Shown in pieces: positions 1,577 through 40,268 of a DNA stretch of 40,357 nt. Each line of letters starts with the position of its first letter. The stretch's first letter is position 1. A model generated the notes under the pieces. It was not told where the DNA came from. It worked only from the letters and a program-made list of their open reading frames with translations, and searched no databases. This stretch comes from a virus, in IMG/VR virus record IMGVR_UViG_3300024054_000179, positions 1-40,357 of that record, one strand, 5' to 3'. The position numbers and the translations under genes are program-made.

Positions 1577-2037
1577 ATTATATCCTTTTCAGGTTTTTTT
1601 GTTTCTTGTTCTATTTTTTGATCTAATTCTTGCTTTATTCTTCTGAATTGATCGAGACATATGCGACATGCTTCTTTGAATATTTCTTGAAGACCTATTG
1701 AATTATGCACATCATTCATCTTTCCAGCATTATTCAATACCGCAATAGTCAATTCTGTTGCTCTTTGAAGGATATTACCAGAGTCCACATTCTTTCTTTC
1801 ATTTTCTCTGCTGTAAGATTCTGCAGTATTTGATTTTAGTATTTTCAAACTCTGCAGATTCTTGAAATCTCCGTTTTCTGTATAGAAAACTTCCACTTCA
1901 TCTCCAACCTTGCAATCTACTTCAGCTTTCATGAACTTGTTAGCGATCCATCCATTCTTCTCAGTTTGGATTCCTTTTTTATCTTTTCGGATAGATTTTA
2001 CTTTGTCTATCAGCTTTTTAAGTTCTTTCTCAGCCAT
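1573..2037 (-). CDS. OB-fold-like protein, candidate ssDNA-binding protein (paralogue 1)
   Basis: The 154-residue protein has an N-terminal beta-rich segment (about residues 14-68) with GWIANKF followed by KVGDEVEVFY, a layout seen in OB-fold domains. Residues 90-145 are helical, and the last 20 residues are charged. The next gene upstream has the same plan (G-W-x-N-x-F, then G-D), so the two look like diverged paralogues. A role in binding single-stranded DNA during viral replication or recombination is an inference from fold and pairing. It overlaps both neighbours by a few bases. Confidence 0.5.
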   Translation of the reverse strand: MAEKELKKLIDKVKSIRKDKKGIQTEKNGWIANKFMKAEVDCKVGDEVEVFYTENGDFKNLQSLKILKSNTAESYSRENERKNVDSGNILQRATELTIAVLNNAGKMNDVHNSIGLQEIFKEACRICLDQFRRIKQELDQKIEQETKKPEKDII

Positions 2038-2518
2038 TTTTTTCTCCCGAGGTGTCTTCGTTTGCCTCTTGTTTAGTTATGTACGATATTAGTTTATCAT
2101 ACATTGAATATATTTCTTTATCTCCCAATAAATTCCTTTTTATGCTTAAATCAACGCATGCATGCATAAGATTGTATTTTGCTGCAAGTAGATTCGTGCC
2201 ATCTACGAGAGGAATCGATTTAAATATTTCATTGTCTTTTTTTGTAACGGATTTATGCGTTTCTTGAATATTAATTATCTTCTTTACATTATAATAAGCA
2301 TTTCCATTTGATTCTGTGATCTCATACTCTAATTCTATTATATCTCCTTCTGTGCCTGGTGCAGTACCAAATCCATTCAACCAGATTCCATTAAGCTCAT
2401 TATCTAATCTTAACCCATATCTTTTTCCCTTGTCTGTTTCTTTCTGGCTTAAACGAGTTATTTCTCCTTTTATTTTGTTTAATTTTGCTTCTGGTTTAAA
2501 ATCATCTAAGTTGCTCAT
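2030..2518 (-). CDS. OB-fold-like protein, candidate ssDNA-binding protein (paralogue 2)
   Basis: A 162-residue protein. Residues 15-75 look like an OB fold: KGEITRLSQKET, then KRYGLRLDNE, GIWLNGFG, TEGDIIELEYEI and a last strand. A linker and a helical C-terminal half (about 100-150) follow, and the tail is acidic (EANEDTSGEKNG). Acidic tails after an OB fold are typical of viral and bacterial SSBs, where they recruit partners. Paralogue of the downstream gene. The start overlaps the upstream small gene's stop (GAATGAGC). The function is inferred. Confidence 0.5.
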   Translation of the reverse strand: MSNLDDFKPEAKLNKIKGEITRLSQKETDKGKRYGLRLDNELNGIWLNGFGTAPGTEGDIIELEYEITESNGNAYYNVKKIINIQETHKSVTKKDNEIFKSIPLVDGTNLLAAKYNLMHACVDLSIKRNLLGDKEIYSMYDKLISYITKQEANEDTSGEKNG

Positions 2519-3179: not shown

Positions 3180-3215
3180 GTTTTTTTCCTGAAGGTTTTC
3201 GTGTTTGCCTTCATT

Positions 3216-3260
3216 ATTATTACGAATAATGCCTTTTTAAAACTTTCTATTTTGGAAAGT
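3216..3260 (-). promoter_or_regulatory. Two short inverted repeats upstream of the 79-aa gene
   Basis: A perfect 6-bp inverted repeat around a 3-nt spacer (ATTATT ACG AATAAT, 3216-3230) and a second 6-bp one (ACTTTC...GAAAGT, 3242-3260) lie together between two genes. On the minus strand GTTTTAAAAAG (about 3233-3243) between them could serve as a TATA element. They may be operator half-sites for one of the nearby winged-helix proteins or a weak terminator. Confidence 0.35.
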
Positions 3261-3278
3261 AATTTTATAGTGACACAA

Positions 3279-3422
3279 TTATTTTGTATTAACTTTTGAG
3301 TTACACAATTTATGTATATGATAATTTGGTCTGTTTGAATATCCGCATTTCTTGCAAAAAAAATAGATATCCTTATTAATTCTCGTGCTATTGCAGATTG
3401 GACACTTTTTTGGATTGCTCAT
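3279..3422 (-). CDS. Small zinc-ribbon protein, 47 aa
   Basis: An open frame from the ATG at 3422 to the TAA at 3279-3281. The protein carries CPIC at residues 7-10 and CKKCGY at 23-28, a clear four-Cys zinc ribbon with a 12-residue knuckle spacing, and a short basic tail. It overlaps the end of the upstream winged-helix gene by 35 nt in another frame and has no evident SD, so translation would rely on coupling. Such mini zinc ribbons are frequent in archaeal viruses. Function unknown. Confidence 0.55.
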   Translation of the reverse strand: MSNPKKCPICNSTRINKDIYFFCKKCGYSNRPNYHIHKLCNSKVNTK

Positions 3423-3600
3423 TTGATTGATATTCAAATTTATTTCCATTATCCTTTAATATTCCGGAAATAAGAAATCGATTTATTGCTTCTTTTCTAG
3501 CCATTTCACTTGCATAAAACATTTGAAAATCATAATAAGTTAAATATCCTTTTTGTTTTGCAATTTCAATTAATTTTTTCTGTTTTATTGTTAGTTCCAT
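3388..3600 (-). CDS. Small winged-helix-like protein, 70 aa
   Basis: A 70-residue protein reading like a short winged helix: helix 1 at 4-17, YLTYYDFQMFY at 19-29, a candidate recognition helix AREKAINRFLISGIL-type segment at about 34-48, then a short wing (KDNGNKFEYQ). Basic and probably DNA-binding. Its ATG lies only about 5 nt after the GC-rich structured region at 3605-4030, so that RNA could be its 5' leader or be co-transcribed with it. No SD precedes the ATG. Confidence 0.55.
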   Translation of the reverse strand: MELTIKQKKLIEIAKQKGYLTYYDFQMFYASEMARKEAINRFLISGILKDNGNKFEYQSNEQSKKVSNLQ

Positions 3601-3604
3601 TCTT

Positions 3605-4030
3605 ATCCATTACCCCAGACCCCTCACAAACCGATCTCAGCAGCGCACTCCCAACTCTGGATTTTGGCTGCAGAGGAAGGTTTCGCCGTGATTCTCGCAT
3701 AGGTCTTATGCCTTGTTTTCTGGGAAGATCCTCGCTTGTGAAAATCTTAACACATTAATTCTGGATAAATTGCCGTTTCGCTGTTGCTTATCGACTAGCA
3801 TATTCATGCCGCTTATTCCTCATGCCCCATGTTTGTCCTTAGTCGCCGTATCATTCGTGCTTGCATGTTACTAGCCACTCGCAGTCTGCCGTAGCTTTCC
3901 AGCGGTGTTTTTCGCATATCTCGAGAGTAGCATGGACCACAAGTCTTCTGCTCTTATTATCCCCAGGTGGGCCTCGCCTGATATATCGCATTACAGCTTA
4001 GCTTCGCCAAGTCCTGTACTTTGCACCCAG
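3605..4030 (-). ncRNA. Candidate large structured RNA, about 425 nt, family not recognised
   Basis: This stretch has no convincing gene on either strand and a base composition unlike everything around it: by hand count 3841-3900 has 32 G/C of 60 and 3961-4020 has 33 of 60, while nearby coding lines have about 14-18. In AT-rich genomes such islands usually mark structured RNAs. The minus strand has several local stems: GCATA/TATGC at 3695-3709, a GCAGC/GCTGC pair (about 3640-3672) enclosing CCA/TGG, CAGG/CCTG at 3963-3980, GCAT/ATGC around 3799-3810 and AAGAT/ATCTT around 3724-3747. A TATA-like box lies about 25 nt before its right edge and all genes run this way, so minus is the likely strand. 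I see no RNase P, SRP, tmRNA, rRNA or intron core motif. It resembles in size and setting the large ornate phage RNAs (GOLLD, ROOL), but I cannot match it. A long 5' leader of the 70-aa gene is the alternative. Confidence 0.65.
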
Positions 4031-4045
4031 AATTACATATATCTC

Positions 4046-4060
4046 TTATTTTTAAAAGTT
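4046..4060 (-). promoter_or_regulatory. TATA-like promoter for the structured RNA
   Basis: On the minus strand AACTTTTAAAAATAAG reads as an archaeal BRE/TATA-type element. Its centre is about 25 nt before the point near 4030 where base composition switches from AT-rich to GC-rich, the expected TATA-to-start distance in archaea. Confidence 0.5.
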
Positions 4061-4075
4061 TCTAAAATATGTTAT

Positions 4076-4116
4076 TATTAAAAAGTGACGCAGTCGTCGG
4101 ATTGGTTGGGCGTCAC
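4076..4116 (-). terminator. GC hairpin followed by T-tract
   Basis: The minus strand reads GTGACGC, an 18-nt loop, GCGTCAC, then TTTTT (7-bp perfect stem, 4085-4116, T-run at 4080-4084). This is the layout of an intrinsic terminator. It sits just upstream of the RNA promoter and would insulate it from transcription entering from the tail region. It could instead be the first stem of a longer RNA starting near 4150. Confidence 0.5.
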
Positions 4117-4171
4117 ACCAATGAAAAGAGAGTAATTGTTCAGTTCCAATCATTATTCATACACACATTAA

Positions 4172-4206
4172 CTATTTAAACTTTTCTAAAAAAATAAAAA
4201 AAATAA
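4172..4206 (-). terminator. T-rich terminator overlapping a TATA-like element
   Basis: Directly after the stop at 4220 the minus strand carries a long T-rich run (TTTATTTTTTTTATTTTTTT, about 4187-4206), the usual archaeal termination signal. It is followed by AAAGTTTAAATAG (4172-4184), a good TATA-like box that would start a transcript near 4150. The segment 4117-4171 has no gene. Confidence 0.45.
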
Positions 4207-4219
4207 ATTAATTGATTAT

Positions 4220-4711
4220 TTATGCGAGTGAATACTTTACATCGTCTACTTCATTATCTGTAATAACATATTCAGCATTTATATATGCCTTTTTGCTATT
4301 GCCAAATTTATCTTCGTAGTAAACTTTCAAGTTGAGTGTTACACTTGCATCTTTATCTTTTGCATCCCCAGAGAATGAGCTATCCTTAATTATAACTTTG
4401 CTGATATCTGTTTTCTCTTTAATAGAGATTCTATTATCAGTCATCCAGTTGAAAAGGTCTTTATAATCTCTTTCCTCTAAGTCTGCCTGAGCCAATGCTA
4501 TTGCACTTGATTCCCAGTTTTTATCTTTTAATACTTCGTTTTTCAATTCTGTAAGATCAGACTTAACTGCAGAATCATTATAAGGTGCCATTACTAAAAC
4601 TGGTTTGTCCACTTGATTTACAACAGATTTTGCTGGAATTATTGCATATCCTGCCAGGACACCTATAATTAAGCATGCAACCATCAACACACTTGCGACT
4701 ATTTTATCCAT
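4220..4711 (-). CDS. Membrane-anchored or secreted protein, 163 aa
   Basis: The protein begins with a short positive N-terminus and a hydrophobic segment at about residues 4-25 (IVASVLMVACLIIGVLAGYA), followed by a soluble domain. No lipobox Cys is placed for cleavage, so a signal anchor or uncleaved signal peptide is likely. The rest alternates helix (40-105) with beta strands (SVTLNLKVYYEDKFG, AYINAEYVI). It is the last gene of the late region, after the holin-like gene, and has GGAGG 4-5 nt before ATG. A role in lysis, virion egress or the host envelope is possible; no catalytic motif is visible. Confidence 0.6.
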   Translation of the reverse strand: MDKIVASVLMVACLIIGVLAGYAIIPAKSVVNQVDKPVLVMAPYNDSAVKSDLTELKNEVLKDKNWESSAIALAQADLEERDYKDLFNWMTDNRISIKEKTDISKVIIKDSSFSGDAKDKDASVTLNLKVYYEDKFGNSKKAYINAEYVITDNEVDDVKYSLA

Positions 4712-9904: not shown

Positions 9905-11457
9905 TAATAATAACCTCCCGAATAATTTAGATTAAATGGACCAAATGCACTTCCTACTGGAGATCCAGATAATTTTCCTTGACTAGTTCCACTTGCTAAA
10001 TGAAAAGGATTAATTGGAGGAATAAACCCCGTACTATAAATATGATATGCGCTTCCAGTTACAGAACTTGTATAAGCATTCCATCTGCTTCCAACAATCA
10101 TCATGCTTCCTGTTGATGTTATCAACCTACTAAGGATATCAGAATCTTGAAGGTTCTGTGTTTCTAATAATGTTAATCTTCTATTTATTTCTTTGATTTT
10201 ATCTGTTATGTCTAAAAACTTTTTATTAATAATTAAATTTAAAACATTTTCTGATTGTACGGAATTTTTGTCAAGTCTATAATTAACTTCTAATATTGAT
10301 AATGTATCTGTTAATCCAAAATGATCAAGTTGAATATCTATAGTTTGTCCTGGCAATATAGAATACCATCCTTTCAAAATGCATTCTACTCTATTAAATG
10401 GATTTACGTCATTTAACTTCTGTTTTAATATATCTAGTGCAGTTTGAGGATCTTTTATTGTACTATCTTGTATTTTAAGATTTTTTGGTCCATATAATGC
10501 TATTGAATTATCGTCTTGACCATATTTAACTATAGGCAAATCTCTATAATAATTAACAATCACACTTCCTCCACTTGCAGGAAAGTTTGGAAAATCTCCA
10601 CCAGAATAAAATAAAATTTGTCTATCATCAAATGATACACCGTAATCTTGTCCACTTGTAGGAATTAAAGTCATACCTTCAACTGCTCCTTTAAGTATAT
10701 TCCCAAGATAAGTGACTGTTGTATTGTGTGGCTTATATGTCAATGTTATTGCACTTCCACCTAAAGGACTTCCCATTGTGAATTGTTCTGCTGGTACTTC
10801 TGATAAATATCTATCTCCATAAACCCATATCTTATTAGCCATTCCCTGCCTGGATTTGTCATAATCAATTTTAATTAAATTTGAATTATTTAATGTAATT
10901 CCTGAACTGGATGTATCTGCTTGCTCAAAGTGCAAGTCCTTATTTACATCGACATAAAAAATAAATCCTGCTAGATCTGCTAATTGTTTTAATGCATCAA
11001 AAATTGGAGTATGATTAAATCCTATTCTTTTTAATGTTTTTCCTGTATTTTGCACATTCGTTGTTGTTATATCAGGAACATTGTTATTTGTTAAGATATT
11101 TTTAACAATGTCTGATATTTCTGTTTCAGAGAATACAATTGGCTCTACTGTGATATCCATTAATCTGACGGTATAATCTCTACCAGATAATTCAACTGTT
11201 TGTTCTGTTTCTTCTCCACTAAATACAATTTTTTCTAGTATTCCTTTAAATATTATTGTTGTTGCTTCTGCATCTTTATCTGCGTATATAATTACTTCTT
11301 GTCCAACAGAAAAATCAGATTTATGCCTTCCATAAGGAGAATCAAATATTGCATTAAATGAACTCGATGCATTTGCTTCATCCATAGTTTTGCTAATAAT
11401 TAGATTTTGATAATCAGAGAATTCTGTCCCATTCACAGTCATTTTTGTCTTAATCAT
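9904..11457 (-). CDS. Baseplate hub protein, gpD/gp27-like
   Basis: A 517-residue protein. The first 220 residues follow the late-control gpD/gp27 hub pattern: MTVNGTEF, SFNAIFDSP, FSVGQEVIIYAD, IFKGILEKI, TVELSGRDYTVRLMD, then TEISDIVKNIL and FDALKQLADLAGFIFYVDVNKDLHFE. These domains form the ring that closes the tail tube above the receptor-binding parts. Residues 330-420 look like another beta domain, then a helix (NRRLTLLETQNLQ) and a Gly/Ser-rich tail. It couples by ATGA to the tape measure gene upstream and by TAATG to the next tail gene. Confidence 0.75.
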   Translation of the reverse strand: MIKTKMTVNGTEFSDYQNLIISKTMDEANASSSFNAIFDSPYGRHKSDFSVGQEVIIYADKDAEATTIIFKGILEKIVFSGEETEQTVELSGRDYTVRLMDITVEPIVFSETEISDIVKNILTNNNVPDITTTNVQNTGKTLKRIGFNHTPIFDALKQLADLAGFIFYVDVNKDLHFEQADTSSSGITLNNSNLIKIDYDKSRQGMANKIWVYGDRYLSEVPAEQFTMGSPLGGSAITLTYKPHNTTVTYLGNILKGAVEGMTLIPTSGQDYGVSFDDRQILFYSGGDFPNFPASGGSVIVNYYRDLPIVKYGQDDNSIALYGPKNLKIQDSTIKDPQTALDILKQKLNDVNPFNRVECILKGWYSILPGQTIDIQLDHFGLTDTLSILEVNYRLDKNSVQSENVLNLIINKKFLDITDKIKEINRRLTLLETQNLQDSDILSRLITSTGSMMIVGSRWNAYTSSVTGSAYHIYSTGFIPPINPFHLASGTSQGKLSGSPVGSAFGPFNLNYSGGYY

Positions 11458-12611
11458 AGTGATAATTTGTTATTTAATTCATTTGATAAGGATCTGCTTA
11501 TTTGTGTTGCACTTATTCCTTGTATTGTTCCAATATTATTAATTACTGTGAATTTTGGAGCTGTGGGTATTATCGGAATATATGATGGCGCCCTTTCCAT
11601 ACCTTTGGGAGTATAACCTGATTGAGTAACTCTTCCTCCATATTGACCCGACCCAGTTAGATATTGAAATGATTTTAGTTTTTGTTCTTGAATCATTAGA
11701 TCATAAAATGCTTTTTCTGTTTCATCTGCCTTTTTTCTTAATTCTTCTAAATTTGCAATTCTTGTTTGTATAGCTGCAACATATGAGGGTGTTTCTGGAG
11801 TTAACATTCCCAATACAGTAATTAATCCAACGATTGCAGCAACTGTTCCTCCTGTTGCCAATAATCCTCCCACTCCAACTGCTGTAGTCAAGGATGTAAA
11901 CATAGAAGTTAATCCTCCAGTTCCACCGATCGCTGTTGCTAATGATCCCAAATTTCCAGCAACACTTATTGCTTGTACCCCCATATCAACCATAGCCCAT
12001 TTAGCATCTCCTTGAGCTTTTTCTAATCCTCTTGTTGCTCGATCTACGTTATTAGTGGCAATAATTAATGCATCTTGTTTGTCTTTTAGTTCTTTTGCCT
12101 TATCTGTACTTAGTTGTTGTGCATCTGCCAAGTCAAGTGCGGCTTCTTTTGCTCTTATTTGAGCATCTTGATAATTTTTTAATTTTTCTCCAGTAAATGT
12201 TATTCCTTGCTCTAATCTGTTAGTATAAAATCTTAAATCTTCTTGTGCGCGCGTATTGGCTATTGTTGCTTTTTCTAATGTTAAACTGTCCCTTGCATGA
12301 TTTTTCTCTACATCACTTAAATCCTGTTGTGCCTGCTTTAATCTAAGTGTTGCGTTTTCAAGTCTATCCTGCGCATTTTCAAGATTTCTTGTTGCTCTTT
12401 CATTTGTTTCAAATATGTTGTGTATTCCTTGTGCTACCTGACCAAGATTAAGCATTGCTCCTTGAACTTTTTTAAATGAATCTCCAAGAGAAACATTTGC
12501 TTTTTCAGAATTCTTTGCTGTTGTTTGTATTTGCTTCTCTATATTTTTTAATGTTTGACTTGCTTCATCAACTGCTTTTATTAAAATCTCTATTCTTTCA
12601 TCTTCTGCCAT
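11454..12611 (-). CDS. Tail tape measure protein
   Basis: A 385-residue protein beginning IEILIKAVDEASQTLKNIEKQ, the standard start of phage tape measures. Residues 15-205 are a long coiled coil rich in Ala, Gln, Asp and Lys. Residues about 208-272 are hydrophobic (GVQAISVAG, GGLLATGGTVAAIVGLITVLG), as in membrane-inserting regions of tape measures. A short helical piece and a Pro-rich tail follow. Tape measures set tail length at about 1.5 angstrom per residue, so a short siphovirus tail of about 60 nm is predicted. It overlaps the frameshift extension of the chaperone gene by 14 nt. Confidence 0.8.
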   Translation of the reverse strand: MAEDERIEILIKAVDEASQTLKNIEKQIQTTAKNSEKANVSLGDSFKKVQGAMLNLGQVAQGIHNIFETNERATRNLENAQDRLENATLRLKQAQQDLSDVEKNHARDSLTLEKATIANTRAQEDLRFYTNRLEQGITFTGEKLKNYQDAQIRAKEAALDLADAQQLSTDKAKELKDKQDALIIATNNVDRATRGLEKAQGDAKWAMVDMGVQAISVAGNLGSLATAIGGTGGLTSMFTSLTTAVGVGGLLATGGTVAAIVGLITVLGMLTPETPSYVAAIQTRIANLEELRKKADETEKAFYDLMIQEQKLKSFQYLTGSGQYGGRVTQSGYTPKGMERAPSYIPIIPTAPKFTVINNIGTIQGISATQISRSLSNELNNKLSL

Positions 12612-12765
12612 ATTGTTTTTTTCTGTCTTTATTCATTTTGTTTATGTATAAACAGATTAATTGGACTTCATAGAGTGTGAGACTATCAACATAGTCTTTT
12701 TGCCAGCCGAAGTATTCGCATATTTTAAGGCGAGTTTCTTCTCCTTTACTTAGCTGGCATCCTAA
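12598..12765 (-). CDS. Frameshift extension of the tail assembly chaperone (T domain, GT-type)
   Basis: A 55-codon frame from the Leu codon at 12765-12763 to the TGA at 12600-12598. It has no ATG near its start (the only in-frame ATG is near its C-terminus) and no TTG or GTG; a TAA in this frame lies just four codons before the slip site. The encoded peptide, beginning LGCQLSKGEETRLKICEYFG and continuing with a YVDSLTLYEVQ segment, has normal protein character. It can only be made by a -1 ribosomal frameshift from the 70-aa gene, as in the lambda G/GT system, giving a fusion of about 125 aa that would recruit the tape measure to the tail tube. Confidence 0.8.
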   Translation of the reverse strand, partial: LGCQLSKGEETRLKICEYFGWQKDYVDSLTLYEVQLICLYINKMNKDRKKQYGRR

Positions 12766-39334: not shown

Positions 39335-39420
39335 TATCCCATTGCCTCTGCTTTTATTTTATCGATTATTTCTTTTTCCAATTCATCAAAAGCTTGTTCT
39401 AATTCTTTATCTTCTATCAT
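39334..39420 (-). CDS. Short frame matching a lost C-terminus of the Cys-repeat gene
   Basis: An open frame of 28 codons from the ATG at 39420 to the TAA at 39334-39336. It starts inside the end of the Cys-repeat gene in another frame; its first residues (EDKEL) match the residues after NDR in the upstream copy at 39765-40268. A missing GA relative to that copy explains the shift. It may now be translated alone by overlap, or be the dead tail of the gene. Confidence 0.4.
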   Translation of the reverse strand: MIEDKELEQAFDELEKEIIDKIKAEAMG

Positions 39421-39763
39421 TTTTTAGTTCCTCCATTTTCTTCTCGTATTCTTCTTTAGTTACTTCTATATTGCAGATATAATAACCTGTTTTTTTATTG
39501 TGTAAGTTCCTGCAATAAGAGCAATTAGAGCAATTGAAGCAATAAGAGCAATAAGAGCAATCAGAGCAATAAAAGCAATAAGAGCAATCAGAGCAATCAG
39601 AGCAATTGAAGCAATCAGTGCAATAAGAGCAATCAGAGCAATTGAAGCAATCAGAGCAATTGAAGCAATTAGAGCAGTAATTTTTTGGAGCTAAATCATC
39701 AGTCCATTTATAATTAAATAACTCTTGCTTGCTCATCTTCAAGATTTCTTCTTTAGTTTTCAT
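39407..39763 (-). CDS. Cys-triplet repeat protein B
   Basis: The 118-residue protein begins MKTKEEILKMSKQELFNYKW, then has Cys at every third residue from about 30 to 84 (units CSD, CSY, CFN), a linker and the end NDRR. The tripeptide period resembles a metal-binding, collagen-like or extended repeat; no characterised family comes to mind. The DNA repeat uses TGC codons throughout. Compared with copy A, the frame is cut after NDR by a 2-nt difference. It has its own start right after the upstream stop, with a 41-bp direct repeat around it. Confidence 0.75.
   Translation of the reverse strand: MKTKEEILKMSKQELFNYKWTDDLAPKNYCSNCFNCSDCFNCSDCSYCTDCFNCSDCSDCSYCFYCSDCSYCSYCFNCSNCSYCRNLHNKKTGYYICNIEVTKEEYEKKMEELKNDRR
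39512..39680 (-). repeat. 9-bp-type coding repeat of gene B
   Basis: A run of triplet-of-codons units, plus strand GCAATCAGA or GCAATAAGA, encoding C-S/F-D/Y/N. The near-identity of units points to recent expansion by slippage or unequal exchange. Confidence 0.85.
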
Positions 39764-39784
39764 GCTAATCTACCCGCTTGTTTT
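39744..39784. repeat. 41-bp direct repeat, copy 1
   Basis: A perfect 41-bp direct repeat shared with 40249-40289, spanning the end of one Cys-repeat gene (coding NKRVD, stop) and the start of the next (MKTKEEI). The copies lie 505 bp apart, the length of one gene unit, so the genes arose by tandem duplication and could be lost or gained by recombination. Confidence 0.9.
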
Positions 39785-40268
39785 CATTCTCCAATTCTTT
39801 AAGTTTATCCCTAGCTAACTTCTCAAGAGCTTCTTGGATAACAATATTGTCCTTAGATTGCATGATTAACTGCTCTGCTTCTTTCAGGACATTGCCCCAT
39901 ATCTGCTCTGCTCTACTCGTTGCGATCTTCAATCCTAATTCTTTATCTTCTCTATCATTTTTCAACTCCTCCATTTTCCTCTCATATTCTTCTCTAGTTA
40001 ATTTAATATTGCAGATACAATAACTTTCTCTTCTTAGATTTCTACAGCAATAACAATTAAAACAATAAAAACAACCATCACAATCAAAACAACCATCACA
40101 ATTTGAACAATTAAAACAATCAGAACAATCATTACAATTATGGCAATGAGCACAATTTGAACAATTATAACAATCAGAACAATCATCTTCTTCATCAAAA
40201 TCGTCATTCCATTTATAAGCAAATAATTCTTTTTTATTCATCCTTAAAATTTCTTCTTTAGTTTTCAT
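39765..40268 (-). CDS. Cys-triplet repeat protein A
   Basis: The 167-residue protein begins MKTKEEILRMNKKELFAYKW, then an acidic DDFDEEDDC start and Cys at every third residue from 30 to 75 (CSD, CYN, CDG, CFY units), ending CCRNL. A helical C-terminal part follows (EEYERKMEELKNDREDKELG, then SRAEQIWGNVLKEAEQLIM and a KLARDKLKELENENKRVD-type end). This seems to be the intact form. The repeat is written mostly with TGT codons, unlike copy B. Function unknown; metal binding or virion surface roles are possible. Confidence 0.75.
   Translation of the reverse strand: MKTKEEILRMNKKELFAYKWNDDFDEEDDCSDCYNCSNCAHCHNCNDCSDCFNCSNCDGCFDCDGCFYCFNCYCCRNLRRESYCICNIKLTREEYERKMEELKNDREDKELGLKIATSRAEQIWGNVLKEAEQLIMQSKDNIVIQEALEKLARDKLKELENENKRVD
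40030..40190 (-). repeat. 9-bp-type coding repeat of gene A
   Basis: Same kind of repeat as in gene B but with TGT Cys codons and more varied units (plus strand ACAATCAGA, ACAACCATC), so it is older or has expanded separately. Confidence 0.8.

Follow-up and report, generated by a model that had tools for sequence, protein, structure and literature searches.

The window, that is, the whole stretch of DNA that was analysed (40,357 nt), is a single 40.4-kb contig from an IMG/VR virus record, and every gene in it lies on the minus strand. Read along that strand, the locus considered here consists of a 163-aa gene, U-rich tracts past its end, an upstream promoter, a hairpin followed by five T residues, a second promoter, a GC-rich island and a 70-aa ORF (Table 1). 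The 163-aa gene and the 70-aa ORF are 619 nt apart, which is by far the longest gap in the contig and its sole intergenic region of more than about 265 nt. All other intergenic DNA has a GC content of 25.6%.

Table 1. Features at the junction and elsewhere in the window, with counterparts in related loci.
Feature	Sequence	Positions	Strand	Basis or remark
163-aa membrane-anchored protein, last late gene	window	4220-4711	-	homologues mark the same junction in relatives
Upstream promoter, TAGAAAAG-TTTAAAT	window	4174-4188	-	conserved in sequence and place in relative G006
Possible small RNA, ~80 nt	window	4080-4162	-	between upstream promoter and hairpin terminator
Terminator-like hairpin GTGACGC/GCGTCAC (4116-4085) with T5 (4084-4080)	window	4080-4116	-	sequence
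Archaeal BRE/TATA-type promoter, TAGAAAC-TTTTAAAA	window	4050-4064	-	TATA-type box TTTTAAAA at 4057-4050
GC-rich noncoding island, proposed ~430-nt RNA	window	3603-4030	-	GC outlier, no ORF or 3-periodicity, change point, no Rfam match
70-aa ORF, winged-helix-like	window	3388-3600	-	weak Pfam Sigma70_r1_1 match, E=3.5e-4, below cut-off
U8 tract, possible archaeal terminator of the RNA-ORF70 transcript	window	3356-3363	-	just past the 70-aa stop
Promoter of the 79-aa gene	window	3235-3249	-	same class as the island promoter
Leader hairpin of the 79-aa gene family	window	3180-3213	-	
Leader hairpin of the 79-aa gene family	L101	12163-12198		
Leader hairpin of the 79-aa gene family	L102	12267-12308		
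Second promoter class, AATCAANNNATTTAWA	window	8698, 15041, 18795, 23230, 38847	-	before late and other genes
Two cysteine-rich repeat proteins	window	39407-40268	-	
Homologue of the cysteine-rich proteins	L104 (G006)	12380-12706		
tRNA with intron	L101 (G013)	10029-10140		directly after the late 163-aa gene
Methyltransferase-like and SDR-like pair	L101 (G013)	10154-11459		in the slot
Methyltransferase-like and SDR-like pair	L102 (G005)	10055-11304		in the slot
Fourth candidate stretch	L108 (G001)	1793-2260		weakly GC-rich

Many genes of this virus start about 25 nt directly past TATA boxes, others are preceded by GGAGG-type ribosome sites, and most are leaderless or short-leadered. In the phage collection searched, the major capsid protein matched no viruses other than haloarchaeal tailed ones, and the best matches of the portal were all haloarchaeal viruses. 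The terminase alone was closest to Bacteroidetes phages and to loci in bacterial genome bins, a pattern compatible with exchange. Terminase relatives in bacterial genomes had first hinted at a bacterial host, which is overruled by the promoters, the capsid matches and the intron-bearing tRNA of the relative G013. Because of the same three lines of evidence, an archaeal host is preferred, and we conclude from the sequence that this is an archaeal head-tailed virus of unassigned group.

The composition of the island is exceptional. Over positions 3607-4032 the GC content is 48.6%, close to the roughly 48% given in the sequence-only reading, and this is the highest value of any 426-nt window in the contig (next best elsewhere 43.2%, median 31%). 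Across 100 first-order Markov genomes the top 426-nt window had 40.8% GC, below the island. The tRNAs of these viruses are also GC-rich (42-49%). Where a genome is AT-rich, GC-rich intergenic DNA is an established sign of structured RNA (PMC6429828). The island is like the candidates described there in being a long GC-rich intergenic region of an AT-rich genome, but differs from them in that it is known from a single sequence and comes without a comparative structural model. The earlier statement that it holds no gene was borne out. All frames are interrupted. Most shuffles contain an open stretch longer than the 60 codons that are the maximum here, and seven viral genes have period-3 signals of 2.3-11.4, against 0.56 for the island. 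Coding in any frame is ruled out by these ORF and period-3 tests, which also found the corresponding stretches of three relatives to be noncoding.

The signals around the island resemble those of a separate transcription unit. The upstream promoter reads TAGAAAAG-TTTAAATA, and the stretch around it is identical to G006 at 70 of 94 bases. The hairpin and T-run that had been noticed just before the island are present as described, and they would act as a terminator-like element separating the RNA from upstream transcription. A TATA-like box had been placed about 25 nt before the start of the island. The GC change point that fits best on the minus strand indeed lies near 4030, 27 nt past the first base of the TATA box, with a wide 2-log-unit interval of 18-80 nt. 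In G013 the GC rise begins 30 nt after a TATA box, and in both viruses this is where an archaeal transcript would be expected to start. The predicted 5' end of the proposed RNA therefore lies near 4030, and the 3' boundary of the GC-rich island lies at 3603-3612. The ATG of the 70-aa ORF follows directly, at 3600, 2-11 nt past the end of the island. No separate TATA box was seen between the two, nor was a terminator or a U-tract of at least five residues found there; the first such tract downstream of the predicted RNA start is the U8 tract. Because no U-tract of this length separates them, the island and the 70-aa ORF probably belong to a single primary transcript, about 670 nt long if it is not processed. 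Apart from this transcript, the upstream promoter and the hairpin terminator may delimit a small RNA of their own. The loop of the terminator holds CCAATC, which is complementary to an upstream GATTGG and could form a pseudoknot or a switch.

Folding and family searches gave mostly negative results. The sequence-only reading had listed several local stems, a claim that did not hold up: the minimum free energy of the island is no better than that of dinucleotide shuffles on either strand (z -0.5 and -1.1; on repetition +0.3 and -0.7), and no direct or inverted repeats were found within it. Folding energy is a weak test for a single RNA, so the absence of an excess neither proves nor excludes structure. 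The lack of a match to known RNA families was confirmed by an Rfam scan, which returned nothing for the island even at E<10 and no match for the stretches of G006 and G013. RNase P RNA was ruled out (no RF00373 match, also when searched directly), as was a tRNA, even with introns allowed, and introns were rejected as the identity of the island. Archaeal RNase P RNA, SRP RNA and tRNA resemble it in GC content only, with no Rfam match at E<10. The virus-encoded VIPR vrRNAs are defined by YNNGG tandem repeats (PMC13142463) and were likewise rejected, as the window has no run of three or more tandem GGYNN repeats. Nucleotide searches for homologues came back empty. Blastn against phages and plasmids gave one 26-nt chance match, no homologue was found in 44 whole related viral records or among all related loci retrieved, and an exact 16-mer scan of IMG/VR hit 18 contigs in which alignments end at 20 nt, as expected by chance. 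When the flanking proteins were used as bait for further loci, the 70-aa protein yielded none and the 163-aa protein two.

The same junction can be followed in relatives gathered by terminase-based searches. G006, G005, G013 and G001 are 42-45 kb long and broadly syntenic with the window virus, and in these four, as in more distant relatives, the junction can be recognised by a homologue of the 163-aa gene. In G006 the homologue is followed by a promoter and a short hairpin stretch, then by a second promoter that precedes a GC-rich noncoding stretch of 376 nt and a gene. Another short GC-rich stretch, which lies before the TATA box, blurs the GC rise there. In G013 the order is an intron tRNA, two protein genes, a promoter, a 420-nt noncoding stretch and a 54-aa ORF; the tRNA has a 40-nt intron in its anticodon loop, and its anticodon is probably CAT. 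G005 carries two protein genes, tRNA-Thr and tRNA-Met, and a leader of about 100 nt before a winged-helix gene related to the 70-aa one. A tRNA-Met occupies the slot in L174 and L178, so that tRNAs are found there in G005, G013, L174 and L178, and other relatives have protein genes. Because relatives hold tRNAs or protein genes at this place, the junction slot is, judged from gene content, a cargo (accessory) site between the late operon and the early module. The methyltransferase-like and SDR-like pairs in the slots of G013 and G005 are 56% identical each; SDR relatives are found in very different viral contigs, one of them 219 kb long. A search for the slot through the SDR gene gave other architectures and no further RNA stretch.

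When ORF-free gaps of at least 300 nt were ranked by GC deviation across 173 related loci (1.82 Mb, some overlapping, with duplicates removed from the ranking), the three strongest outliers were those of the window, G006 and G013, all at this slot. The stretch of G001 is a fourth candidate, weakly GC-rich (5 points above its locus) and without a clear promoter. No sequence similarity was detected among the four stretches, the best pair (G013/G001, p 0.035) being driven by the AT-rich promoter part. Folding energy was significantly better than that of shuffles for the G013 stretch (z -3.6), but not for those of G006 (z -1.0) and G001. The three outlying gaps are best read as putative noncoding RNAs with their own promoters that diverge fast or were acquired independently.

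Tentatively, and with somewhat less than even confidence, we favour the interpretation that the island is the gene of a noncoding RNA of about 430 nt that has its own promoter, is insulated, sits in a cargo slot and gives a folded, trans-acting product. The RNA would be expressed on the minus strand from the BRE/TATA promoter, and the upstream terminator would insulate it from late transcription. The RNA itself would be the product, most likely a folded molecule with a trans-acting role in the infected cell like that supposed for the phage RNAs GOLLD and ROOL. The 70-aa regulator would ride along on its primary transcript. The extreme GC content, its rise after the TATA box, the noncoding character, the recurrence at the slot, the separate promoter of the next gene in G006, the folding of the G013 stretch and the tRNAs in relatives support this interpretation; the lack of excess folding energy, of a homologue and of a terminator before the 70-aa ATG counts against it, as do the dissimilar sequences of the G006 and G013 stretches, the blurred GC rise in G006 and the weakness of the G001 candidate. 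The earlier proposal of a large viral RNA without a known family thus stands in part: a unit resembling a noncoding RNA gene lies at the late/early junction of an archaeal virus, but its folding does not exceed chance. The most economical account is a noncoding RNA cargo gene, the slots of relatives carrying RNAs that are unrelated or have diverged beyond recognition.

The main rival, named in the sequence-only reading as well and possible but less probable, is that the island is a long 5' leader, a cis-regulatory RNA that would fold on the nascent mRNA and regulate how the 70-aa winged-helix-like gene, an early regulator, is translated or elongated. The island ends immediately before the ATG, with neither a TATA box in between nor a U-tract of at least five residues before U8. 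The related winged-helix gene of G005 sits behind the same promoter class, and its leader is GC-rich; a small ORF also directly follows the stretch of G013. However, a leader of 430 nt would be very long, and the genes of this virus mostly have short leaders or none. The gene that comes after the G006 stretch bears no relation to the 70-aa gene and has a leaderless promoter with a TATA box of its own, so that the stretch is not needed there as a leader. A leader and a noncoding RNA gene may both be true at once.

It is unlikely that the island is merely a piece of foreign or decayed DNA of higher GC content that entered a permissive slot and has no RNA function. Slot contents that differ in every relative, the missing homologue and folding at chance level would fit such an origin, but no frame shows a trace of a protein, the edges of the GC-rich stretch fall at a promoter and at a start codon, and two relatives have a stretch of this kind preceded by a promoter. 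That the island serves as a DNA element, for example a replication origin or a packaging site, is suggested by the module-boundary position and the high GC but is very improbable, as it is free of direct and inverted repeats, relatives fill the same place with protein genes or tRNAs, and an origin need not begin at a transcription start.

As a noncoding RNA gene, the island would work somewhat like GOLLD and ROOL, to judge by analogy, without being a member of either. ROOL (Rumen-Originating, Ornate, Large) is a large noncoding viral RNA that has no known function and often lies near tRNAs, and GOLLD is a large tRNA-associated viral RNA that sometimes has tRNAs in its variable part (PMC12286853). 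What the island has in common with both is its size class, its viral setting, an association with tRNAs and an unknown function (PMC12286853); as with ROOL, it lies in a viral contig with tRNAs in the same slot of relatives, though the window itself has none. GOLLD is often longer than 800 nt and has a conserved 3' domain, whereas the island measures about 430 nt and contains no tRNA. Unlike ROOL, it belongs to an archaeal host, is about 430 nt long, has no sequence or structural homology to that family and is known from one sequence without a covariation-supported structure. It is not filed with GOLLD or ROOL because it fails their covariance models, both at the gathering score and at E<10.

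The published accounts considered place GOLLD and ROOL in bacteria and their phages only. With low confidence it may be suggested that archaeal head-tailed viruses keep a dedicated late/early cargo slot where tRNAs and large orphan noncoding RNAs that evolve fast replace one another, a counterpart of GOLLD and ROOL with the window, G006 and G013 as three examples. If true, RNA cargo exchanged with tRNAs in archaeal viruses would make large RNAs a general viral tool across domains. The slot downstream of the 163-aa late gene is a simple place to collect more examples.

Several other elements were noticed. In three viruses, genes of the 79-aa family are preceded by a short leader hairpin, with stems GAAGG/CCTTC, GCAGG/CCTGC and GCAAG/CTTGC around a conserved AAACAC loop, so that the stem changes are compensatory. 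It sits behind a promoter of the TAGAAANNTTTTAAA class and is followed by a G-rich stretch like a ribosome site. The second promoter class, AATCAANNNATTTAWA, has five exact occurrences and eight with one mismatch, and no shuffle reached eight; it is distinct from the TAGAAANNTTTTAAA class found at the proposed RNA and at the 79-aa gene. Finally, two neighbouring proteins of the window consist mostly of short cysteine-rich repeats (NCSDCFNCSDC-like), and they have a homologue in G006.
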